A stretch of 64,000 nucleotides of DNA from Polyangium spumosum (lineage in GTDB: Bacteria > Myxococcota_A > Polyangia > Polyangiales > Polyangiaceae), in the NCBI RefSeq assembly GCF_009649845.1, contig NZ_WJIE01000001.1, positions 1,349,054-1,413,053 on the forward strand, in the 5' to 3' direction. Positions within the stretch are counted from its first letter, which is position 1. The number at the start of each line of letters is the position of its first letter. The notes beneath the pieces were generated by a model that searched no databases, was not told where the DNA came from, and saw only the letters and a list, made by a program, of their open reading frames with translations. Shown piece after piece: positions 43,368-52,018 of the stretch. The position numbers and the translations under genes are program-made.

Positions 43368-46142
43368 TCAGTTGCACTGGACGCCGCAAGAGGTCGGCAG
43401 CGCGTCGATGCACAGCTGGTCCCAGTCCGTGGTGCAGCAGAACGGGTCGTCGGCGCAGACGGCCGCGACGCACGAGCTGCACGACGCCGAGAGCGGGCCG
43501 AGGTTGAGTGAGCAGACGTCGTGCGCGCAGCAGGTGCCCGCGCCGCAGACGAAGTCGCCGAGGGCGGTGCAGCCGTTGTCCCACGTGCTGGAGCAGCAGT
43601 ACTCGAAGCCGGCCGTGTTGCAGACGTTTGTCGCGCAGGAGCTGCAGCCAGCCGGCAGCGCCGCGCCCGCCTGGCACACGGAGTGCGAGCAGGGCGTGGA
43701 GCAGCCCTCGTCGATCTGGTTGTCGCAGTCGTTGTCCTTCCCGTCGCTACAGACCTCGGAGGTCGGGAAGATCGTCTGCGAGCAGGAGACCGCGCCGCCC
43801 GTGCAGGCGGTTGTCCCCTTGGCACATTCCCCGGACTGGCCGGAGACGGTGCAGGCCGCGCCGCCGCCGGGGTTGCCATTGTCGATCTGGCCGTTGCAGT
43901 CGTTGTCCAGGCCGTCGCAGGCCTCGCCCGTGGGCGCGACGTTCTGGTTGCAGAGGAGCGAGCCGCCGGCGCATAACGTGGTGCCGGCCGCGCAGACGCC
44001 GGGCTGGCCCGTGTTGCAGGCCGCGCCGCCGCCCGGGTTGTTCTCGTCGGTCTGGCCGTCGCAGTCGTTGTCCAGGCCGTCGCAGGTCTCGGCCGTGGGC
44101 TGGACCGTCGGCGCGCAGCCGAGGGCGCCGCCCGTGCATTGCGTGACGCCCGCGGAGCAGACGCCCGGCTGGCCCGTGGCGCACGAGGTGCCGCCGCCGG
44201 GGTTGTTCTCGTCGGTTTGACCGTCGCAATCGTTGTCCTTGCCGTCGCAGATCTCGGGCGCGGGCTGCACGGTCGCGGCGCAGACGAGCGTCCCATTGCT
44301 GCACGTCTGCGTCCCCGCGCCGCAGAGGCCCGGCTGGCCCGTGCTGCAGGCGCCGCCGCCGCCGGGGTTGTTCTCGTCGGTCTGGCCGTCGCAGTCGTTG
44401 TCCAGGCCGTCGCAGGTCTCGGCCGAGGGCTGCGTGGTCTGCACGCACGCGAGCGCGCCGCCCTGGCACTGAAACGTGCCGGCGACACACACGCCGAGCT
44501 TGCCGGGCACGCTGCAGGCGCCGCCGCCGCCGGGGTTGCCCTCGTCGATCTGGCCGTCGCAGTCGTTGTCCTTCGTGTCGCAAATCTCGATCGAGGGCTG
44601 CGTGGTCTGCACGCAGGAGAGCGCGCCGTTTTGACACTGGAACGTGCCCGCGGCGCAGGCGCCTTGCCCGCCCGTCGAGCACGCGCCGCCGCCGCCCGGG
44701 TTCGACTCGTCGGTGGCGCCGTTGCAGTTGTTGTCGAGCCCGTCGCAGATCTCGACCGAGGGCTGGACGATCGGGGCGCAGGTGATCGCGCCGCTCTGGC
44801 AGGTCGAGGTGCCCGAGGCGCAGACGCCGAGCTGCCCGGTCTGGCAGGCGTTCCCGCCGCCGGGGTTGCCCTCGTCGATCTGGCCATTGCAGCTATCGTC
44901 GATACCGTTGCACTGCTCGGGCTGGCCGGGCAGGGTGTTCGGCACGCATTGCAGCGTGCCCGAGCTGCACGTGATCGTGCCCTGCGCGCAGGCGCCGGGC
45001 AGCATCGTGTTGCAGGCGACGCCGCCGCCGGGGTTGCCGTCGTCGATCATGCCGTCGCAATCGTTGTCGACGCCGTCACACAGCTCGGCCGTGGGCTGCT
45101 TGGGCACGCACATCTTGGGCTGGCCGCCGACGCACGCGGCGACCGTGACCTGGCAAGCGCCGAGGCCACACGTGAGGGTGCCGAGGTTGTCGTCGATGAG
45201 CAGGTTGCAATCGTCGTCGATGCCATTGCACTGCTCGGGCTGGCCGGGCAGCGGGGTGCACTGCTGGGGCACGCCGGCCACGCAGTTCTCGGTGGTCGTG
45301 AGGCACGCGCCCGCGCCGCAGGTGGTCTGTCCGAGGTTCTCGTCGGTCATCCCGTCGCAGTCGTTGTCCGCGCCGTCGCAGGTCTCGTCGGCGGGGACGA
45401 CCTCGCCCTCGCAGCCGCCCCAGGCGCCGTCGACGCACGTCTGCGTGCCTTCCTTGCACGCGCCGACGCCCTGCGTCCCGGAGCCGCCCGAGTAGCAGGT
45501 CTGGGTTTGTCCGTCGAGGCAGGTGCACCCCTCGTCGATCTCGCCGTCGCAGTCGTCGTCGGTGCCTTCGCAGGTCTCGGCGGTCGCGGGCGGGAGCGGC
45601 GTGCATTCGGGGACGACGCCATTCTCGCAGCCGGCGACGGTGACCGAACACGCGCCCATTCCGCAGGTGATCTGCGGGATGTCGTCGTCGATCTGGCCGT
45701 CGCAATCCTCGTCCTTGCCGTCGCAGACCTCGGGCGCGCCGCTCGGGAGGACCTCGCCCACGCAGGTCGTGTCCCACTGGCCATTCACGCACGAGACGGT
45801 GCCGGCCTTGCATTCGCCGATGTCTTGCGTGGCGGGATCACCCGAGTAACAAAGCTTCGTGTCGCCGTCGTCGCAGACGGCCATGCTCCCGCCCTCGCCG
45901 CCCATACCGCCGGCGCCGCCGAGGCCGCCCTGGCCCCCGAGGCCGCCCTGGCCCCCGAGGCCACCCGTGCCCCCGAGGCCGCCCGTGCCCGCGACGCCGC
46001 CCGCGCCGCCATTGCCGGCGCCGCCCGCGCCTCCCGGGCCCGAGGTGGTGGTGGGCCCTCCCCCGCTGCATCCGGCGGAGAGAGAGCCCAAGACGAGAGA
46101 AAATACGCCGGCTACCAGCGTGACGCGTGTGAAGTTTCGCAT
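43368..46142 (-). CDS. giant MopE-repeat metal-binding lipoprotein (13 repeats)
   Basis: A 924-aa lipoprotein. Start 46142 has CAGGAGT 7 nt upstream; lipobox LSAGC (Cys about 25), then an unusually long GG-x-GG linker (about 28-85). The main body is 13 successive MopE-type units of about 60 residues, each with a CDGxDNDCDGxxDE core (first at about 140), giving a Ca/Cu-binding-type acidic loop. Units alternate with CNGxxD and NPGGGxxC segments. The C-terminal 100 residues are a Cys-rich module (about 22 Cys with two CCxxxWDxxC motifs: CCSSTWDNGC and CCTTDWDQLC). Copper binding is proven only for Methylococcus MopE, not here. Has a shared CTTTAC promoter with the next two MopE genes. One of three paralogues in this stretch. 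Confidence 0.9.
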   Translation of the reverse strand: MRNFTRVTLVAGVFSLVLGSLSAGCSGGGPTTTSGPGGAGGAGNGGAGGVAGTGGLGGTGGLGGQGGLGGQGGLGGAGGMGGEGGSMAVCDDGDTKLCYSGDPATQDIGECKAGTVSCVNGQWDTTCVGEVLPSGAPEVCDGKDEDCDGQIDDDIPQITCGMGACSVTVAGCENGVVPECTPLPPATAETCEGTDDDCDGEIDEGCTCLDGQTQTCYSGGSGTQGVGACKEGTQTCVDGAWGGCEGEVVPADETCDGADNDCDGMTDENLGQTTCGAGACLTTTENCVAGVPQQCTPLPGQPEQCNGIDDDCNLLIDDNLGTLTCGLGACQVTVAACVGGQPKMCVPKQPTAELCDGVDNDCDGMIDDGNPGGGVACNTMLPGACAQGTITCSSGTLQCVPNTLPGQPEQCNGIDDSCNGQIDEGNPGGGNACQTGQLGVCASGTSTCQSGAITCAPIVQPSVEICDGLDNNCNGATDESNPGGGGACSTGGQGACAAGTFQCQNGALSCVQTTQPSIEICDTKDNDCDGQIDEGNPGGGGACSVPGKLGVCVAGTFQCQGGALACVQTTQPSAETCDGLDNDCDGQTDENNPGGGGACSTGQPGLCGAGTQTCSNGTLVCAATVQPAPEICDGKDNDCDGQTDENNPGGGTSCATGQPGVCSAGVTQCTGGALGCAPTVQPTAETCDGLDNDCDGQTDENNPGGGAACNTGQPGVCAAGTTLCAGGSLLCNQNVAPTGEACDGLDNDCNGQIDNGNPGGGAACTVSGQSGECAKGTTACTGGAVSCSQTIFPTSEVCSDGKDNDCDNQIDEGCSTPCSHSVCQAGAALPAGCSSCATNVCNTAGFEYCCSSTWDNGCTALGDFVCGAGTCCAHDVCSLNLGPLSASCSSCVAAVCADDPFCCTTDWDQLCIDALPTSCGVQCN

Positions 46143-46189
46143 GCCCGACTCCTGCAAGCGTCCCGGGCACATGCTCGGGGCAAGAGGGG

Positions 46190-46219
46190 ATCGTTGCACA
46201 TTCGGGGCGAACGTGTAAA
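46190..46219 (-). promoter_or_regulatory. CTTTAC-type promoter of first MopE gene
   Basis: Minus-strand CTTTACA (46220-46214), 18 bp after TTTACA, AACGAT (46195-46190). The gene starts 48 nt beyond the -10. The same layout occurs before the other two MopE genes. Confidence 0.5.
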
Positions 46220-51924: not shown

Positions 51925-51989
51925 CGGCCCTCCGAACTACATGAGGCCCAGGCACATTTGCACCCGGACCTCGCACGCAAGACGGCCGG

Positions 51990-52018
51990 ATGTTTCCAGG
52001 ATTCTGCGGCCGCGTAAA
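51990..52018 (-). promoter_or_regulatory. CTTTAC-type promoter of third MopE gene
   Basis: Minus-strand CTTTACG (52019-52013), AAACAT (51995-51990) 17 bp further on. Similar to the other two MopE promoters, although the start codon is farther away (66 nt). Confidence 0.4.

Follow-up and report, generated by a model that had tools for sequence, protein, structure and literature searches.

An old endonuclease/exonuclease/phosphatase-fold gene upstream of TamB and TamA in Polyangiaceae and the apparently late MopE-type repeat genes around it in Polyangium

Four neighboring genes for putative lipoproteins

The stretch of DNA analyzed here, in the following called the window, comprises 64,000 nucleotides of contig NZ_WJIE01000001.1 (positions 1,349,054 to 1,413,053) from Polyangium spumosum, the genome of which amounts to 10.76 Mb in 61 contigs. 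It holds three genes, designated A, B, and C, that encode long proteins with repeats of the Pfam family PF11617 (Cu-binding_MopE, "putative metal-binding motif"), and a gene for a protein with an endonuclease/exonuclease/phosphatase (EEP) fold, which lies between B and C, while C is placed between the EEP gene and the gene for TamB (Table 1). A preliminary description had read the four genes as one coordinated cell-surface module, possibly for metal capture and for digestion of nucleic acid or prey surfaces. The anatomy of the locus was correctly described and the interpretation is supported in part, though not with regard to one machine: in the family Polyangiaceae the EEP gene is old and its order with TamB and TamA is a family-level one, whereas the repeat genes, judged from their distribution, look like late, genus-level arrivals beside it. 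Open reading frames and Pfam searches agreed with the earlier assignment of all four genes, their frames and strands, and the numbers of MopE units. The stretch delimited for them at that time (43368-52018) contains the genes, but its end lies 94 bases past the start of C (51924).

Table 1. Position of the four genes and of further features within the window.
Feature	Coordinates	Strand	Basis or remark
Gene A, putative lipoprotein of 924 residues: Gly-rich tether, 13 PF11617 units, C-terminal Cys/Trp module	43368..46142	-	
Gene B, putative lipoprotein of 855 residues: Gly-rich tether, 11 PF11617 units, C-terminal choice-of-anchor J domain	46300..48867	-	
EEP gene, putative lipoprotein of 355 residues: Gly-rich tether, EEP-fold domain, active-site residues conserved	49086..50153	+	
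Gene C, putative lipoprotein of 572 residues: Gly-rich tether, 6 PF11617 units, B-like C-terminal domain	50206..51924	-	
Cys/Trp module at the C-terminus of A, CC(4)WDxxC twice	43371..43703	-	without Pfam or NCBIfam match
Terminator-like hairpin, 12 pairs, between B and A	46252..46280	-	consensus match
ABC-F ATPase with two ABC_tran domains	41609..43288	+	Pfam; synteny
TamB	52088..56509	+	Pfam PF04357, 88.4 bits
PhnD-like phosphonate-binding protein, 3′ of TamB	56520..57353	-	Pfam
Open frame holding a TamA-like Omp85 protein with POTRA domains	56625..60725	+	true start further in

The EEP protein

The EEP protein belongs to the EEP superfamily, with 55.0 bits against PF03372 (cut-off 24.5) and 49.7 bits against PF19580 (cut-off 27). 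N93, E140, H228, D268, N270, D344, and H345, which we take to be the catalytic residues of the EEP fold, are invariant across 23 aligned sequences including the one from the window (sequence L048 was left out). A wider alignment of 40 more distant rows likewise shows E140, H228, D268, and N270 as invariant, with D344 and H345 conserved to 90%; N93 is missing from its list of conserved positions. The structure model of the domain has a mean predicted local distance difference test score (pLDDT) of 95.1 and a predicted template modeling score (pTM) of 0.93. When compared with the PDB, its top match was the human neutral sphingomyelinase, and Tdp2, DNase I, and bacterial sphingomyelinases were also among the matches listed, the query-normalized TM-scores of the 50 listed rows being 0.57-0.66. 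Since sphingomyelinases, Tdp2, and DNase I all match, the fold does not reveal the substrate, and the earlier designation as nuclease-like is not borne out. A search of the PDB with the sequence returned matches to Gly-rich linkers as best rows, and one EEP-family chain, 9sf9, at 1.7e-4. The closest curated subfamily is that of the extracellular DNases ExeM/NucH (NF033681), with which the protein shares the EEP fold and the conserved active-site residues; it differs by its short, lipoprotein-like form and by a score of 47.2 bits, below the subfamily cut-off of 300.

The EEP protein as well as A, B, and C start with a hydrophobic stretch that is followed by a Cys residue and a Gly-rich tether, as judged by eye, and the export-type N-terminus attributed to the EEP protein before was thus found again. 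The residues at the tether Cys of the four proteins are SAGC, AFGC, SSGC, and AFGC, which we regard as deviating from a textbook lipobox in that position -3 is not canonical. Export and lipidation of all four proteins might nevertheless be assumed on the basis of these N-termini. The Gly-rich tether, previously regarded as a common property of the set, is indeed present in all four proteins, but a specific shared tether is not supported: in EEP orthologs from other genera the linkers are Ser/Thr/Gly-rich and of varied make-up, and a frame elsewhere in the same genome (C6:367071) matches the EEP query across the tether stretch.

Order of the EEP, TamB, and TamA genes across relatives

EEP homologs were searched in 98 genomes. 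The family of P. spumosum, called Polyangiaceae here, also comprises records of Sorangium and Minicystis. Matches with E values of 1e-45 or lower were obtained for 41 other genomes, and the regions around the EEP gene were fetched from 40 of these (5 from Polyangium, 35 from other genera); the remaining genome (G083) has a close ortholog in a region, L235, that ends 100 bases past the EEP gene. All 23 regions with orthologs of at least 377 bits, 18 of them outside Polyangium, contain TamB downstream on the same strand, and Omp85 (TamA) was also found in 20 of them. In three regions (L069, L070, and L073) the matched EEP and TamB stretches are only 41-59 bases apart. The gap between both genes can also be filled by unrelated lipoprotein-like genes, as in a Minicystis region (L071, 7920-9173) and in a region of another genus (L074, 10506-12569). 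For orthologs of 191-309 bits, TamB was detected downstream in 6 of 17 regions; five of the 17 lack it despite at least 9 kb of downstream sequence, while another six hold less than 5.5 kb. Among 20 further regions with mostly weaker EEP matches (12 from other families, 8 from the same family), none had TamB, although 8 of them, including L235, extend for less than 6.1 kb downstream and a divergent TamB could be missed by the profile used, which derives from sequences of this family itself. In 10 of the 20 regions of the first batch an ABC-F gene is found to the left of EEP, with contig ends explaining some of the absences. These observations show that the EEP gene is old in the family and that its order with TamB and TamA is a family-level one.

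The downstream genes agree with known TamB-TamA (TAM) loci in comprising TamB (PF04357) and an Omp85 protein with POTRA domains, the TamA-like frame scoring 87.2 bits against PF01103 and 144.9 bits against PF07244. The locus differs by the EEP lipoprotein-like gene upstream; no such gene is mentioned in the passages of PMC4494059 that were considered.

Distribution of the MopE-type repeat genes

A frame with at least two motifs of our own MopE pattern was counted as a MopE neighbor. Such frames surround the EEP gene in the window and in all five other Polyangium regions, but in none of the 35 regions from other genera, several of which are, however, shortened by contig ends, and the pattern could have missed divergent units. 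Similarly, among 80 loci that include many distant EEP relatives, a MopE neighbor was seen in L095 and L096 only, both from Polyangium. The expectation that the neighborhood would be conserved in close relatives therefore holds partly within Polyangium, where C is found in all six species but A and B are not, and fails outside of it. B is present in three of the six species (the window, G014, and G086, which is P. fumosum), with 11 units in the window and 7-8 in the other two by our own patterns. A is likewise found in three species, namely in the window and, as a partial copy with 13 units that starts a contig and adjoins ABC-F, in G077 and G093; the contigs of these two genomes break between A and the EEP gene, and the presence of B is undecidable there. 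Polyangium sp. y55x31 (G056, L062) contains neither A nor B, and ABC-F and the EEP gene are only about 230 bases apart. With regard to the proposed graded repeat length, A has 13 units in the window and both partial copies and C has 6 units in all six species, while B varies.

MopE-type genes are widespread in the family, since PF11617 was found in all 98 sampled genomes. The genome of P. spumosum alone carries at least 37 PF11617 frames (150 of 277 candidates were scored), and these are clustered: 10 pairs lie less than 10 kb apart, whereas 5000 random trials gave 1.2 such pairs on average and never more than 7. As three of the four MopE clusters in this genome lack an EEP gene, tandem duplication is the likely cause of the clustering. 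EEP-superfamily places above the cut-off number eight in the same genome, and the one in the window alone has a listed MopE stretch less than 6 kb away; a second one (C5:484491-485306) is about 8 kb away from the MopE stretch at C5:493128. Because all sampled genomes carry PF11617 and this genome carries many copies, co-occurrence of the two families per genome has no weight, and close co-location was seen once.

Two further MopE places were noted. In the region G000:C2:360000-379900 (L190), a two-gene MopE unit appears to be tandemly duplicated (2688-16918), with frames of 1433 and 983 residues followed by frames of 1398 and 1026 residues and with similar C-termini. One kind of frame presumably ends in a MYXO-CTERM-like sorting tail and the other in something resembling a formylglycine-generating-enzyme domain. 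The region G000:C9:138000-155000 (L192) contains a frame of 2008 residues with 25 MopE-type units (5386-11409).

Architecture and metal binding of the repeat proteins

In the Pfam searches, A scored 206.6 bits with 13 PF11617 stretches, B 177.5 bits with 11, and C 92.4 bits with 6 (cut-off 27), so that all three belong to the family. The units of A and B are spaced by 50-64 residues, mostly 55. A and B share 59% identity over 703 columns and differ in their C-termini, whereas the C-terminal domains of B and C are homologous (43% identity over 181 columns), as had been noticed before. In B, this domain is recognized as a choice-of-anchor J domain (NF038128, NCBIfam; 34.7 bits, cut-off 30), while that of C stays below the cut-off with 16.9 bits. 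A instead ends in the Cys/Trp module already noted in the preliminary description, of which two copies of about 54 residues are present, and for which neither Pfam nor NCBIfam yielded a match. The C-terminal stretch of A matches seven other frames of the same genome, six of them with the CC..WD..C motif and one of these six additionally with MopE motifs. In a sample of 140 Myxococcota genomes it was found in 16 at E 1e-6, including that of P. spumosum itself.

The repeat regions are strongly acidic and rich in Cys (79 in A, 64 in B, and 37 in C), but contain 1, 0, and 0 His and one Trp each. An acidic, DxDxDG-like loop pattern fits 13 of 13 units in A, 11 of 11 in B, and 5 of 6 in C. Compared with other PF11617 proteins, with which they share the acidic CDGxDNDCDG core, A, B, and C stand out by Cys-rich units of about 55 residues, long tethered arrays, and the lack of a His-based copper site. 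The Cu(I) site of MopE* from Methylococcus is formed by His132, His203, and the kynurenine derived from Trp130 (PMC3423442), while in CorA from Methylomicrobium album the kynurenine belongs to the second sphere only (PMC3912023). The same sources report an ion that was read as calcium, with acidic side-chain ligands, in both CorA and MopE* (PMC3912023), and a protection of MopE from proteolysis by calcium (PMC3423442). The window repeats thus resemble MopE and CorA, which hold both calcium and copper, in their predicted export and acidic metal site, but differ in that the copper ligands are missing. With almost no His available, the copper site of MopE cannot form in them. By analogy to CorA and MopE*, and given the acidic loops and the scarcity of His, calcium fits better than copper, and the loop of each unit is most likely a Ca2+ site and the array probably a stalk.

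Further features of the locus

The left flank contains, beside the ABC-F ATPase, a flippase-like protein, and a frame to the right of the TamA-like Omp85 was taken as RecA by eye. Terminator-like hairpins occur eight times in the region, compared to 3.5 expected from shuffled sequences. In the first batch, a PhnD-like gene on the opposite strand 3′ of TamB was also seen in four of the five Polyangium regions and four of the 15 regions from other genera.

Interpretation of the neighborhood

The most likely explanation, which we hold with some confidence, is that two unrelated parts lie together at this locus, namely the gene of an old EEP phosphodiesterase upstream of TamB-TamA and genes for surface stalks, stiffened by Ca2+ and disulfides, that were inserted around it. 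Since the repeat genes seem to have joined an older EEP gene late, at the level of the genus, the set is probably a neighborhood of unrelated parts and not one machine. The old family gene, located shortly before TamB and TamA, would encode an EEP-fold phosphodiesterase that is exported and anchored in the membrane. This enzyme would probably cut phosphodiester bonds outside the cytoplasm with the help of a divalent metal, with DNA or RNA as first and phospholipid head groups as second guess for the substrate. Between one and three genes from a large family of surface proteins would then have been inserted in the Polyangium lineage, on the opposite strand at either side of the EEP gene. A and B might have arisen by one duplication followed by an exchange of the C-terminus, and B may have gained or lost units between species. 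Each repeat protein would be anchored via a lipidated Cys and the Gly-rich tether. Its units of about 55 residues, each combining a Cys-rich portion with a single acidic DxDxDG-type loop in which Ca2+ is most likely bound, would form a stiff stalk, and this stalk would display the jelly-roll-like domain (B and C) or the Cys/Trp domain (A) outward, perhaps in a binding role.

Alternatively, the EEP protein could be an accessory of TamB-TamA, for instance a phosphodiesterase with phospholipid head groups or nucleic acid as substrate where the outer membrane is assembled, with the MopE genes merely interrupting an operon. The same-strand adjacency to TamB in all close orthologs, the gaps of as few as 41 bases, and the human neutral sphingomyelinase as top fold match are in line with such a role. 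However, the adjacency drops to 6 of 17 regions for the more distant orthologs and to 0 of 20 for the further ones, with the short downstream sequences given above for either set, and the closest curated subfamily, although the score is below its cut-off, is one of extracellular DNases. Moreover, as ABC-F and the RecA-like gene are conserved there too, the order of the EEP gene and TamB may be a matter of inertia. An accessory role is hence considered unlikely.

Several points weigh against the reading of two unrelated parts, and some of them favor the coordinated module proposed earlier, in which the MopE stalks would serve to capture metal and the EEP enzyme to digest nucleic acid or the surface of prey. 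Besides the proximity and the same predicted compartment of the four proteins, a Cys followed by a Gly-rich tether occurs only in these four of the 40 crude gene calls of the window. C has stayed beside the EEP gene in all six Polyangium species, always with 6 units and with 72-75% identity to the window copy, which could mean selection for the pair. B and the EEP gene point away from each other, their starts being about 220 bases apart, which makes a shared control possible. In addition, one of the 20 further regions (L219, from another family) has a MopE frame with eight motifs 7.6 kb from the EEP gene, which was treated as chance. The absence of MopE neighbors in the 35 regions of other genera may be affected by the contig ends and the motif pattern mentioned above. 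With regard to the stalk, PF11617 is called only a putative metal binding site in the passages of PMC6189053 that were considered, and the AlphaFold2 model of three repeat units was poor (mean pLDDT 74.3, pTM 0.39, four of five models below 48). A Foldseek search with this unreliable model gave no match better than E 6.4, and searches of the PDB with query P0001 and with a repeat profile found no chain apart from one matched through a Gly linker and a chance hit at E 0.63. Nevertheless, the EEP gene lacks a MopE neighbor throughout the 35 regions from other genera, three MopE clusters of the same genome are without an EEP gene, some Polyangium species lack A and some lack B, and the genes lie on opposite strands with a terminator-like hairpin between B and A. 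A coordinated module is therefore quite improbable.

Copper capture by the repeats after the manner of MopE or CorA, which the Pfam name Cu-binding_MopE and the putative metal binding site of PF11617 (PMC6189053) would suggest and which underlay the earlier idea of metal capture, was rejected as hardly credible, since 1, 0, and 0 His in the repeat regions stand against the two His and the Trp-derived kynurenine needed in MopE* (PMC3423442).

In the open-licence PMC literature, as represented by titles and the beginnings of abstracts, no description of this gene combination was found, and the neighborhood of EEP, TamB, and TamA genes in Polyangiaceae is possibly a new point. Two lessons may be drawn: "MopE" in the name of a Pfam family does not stand for copper, and a striking gene neighborhood can have formed recently on top of an older one. 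As a long shot, the EEP-fold phosphodiesterase of Polyangiaceae might be a working partner of the TamB-TamA lipid or outer-membrane pathway, with MopE-type stalks added by Polyangium at that site of the envelope. The family-level order of EEP, TamB, and TamA genes could point to an enzyme that is linked to outer-membrane transport.

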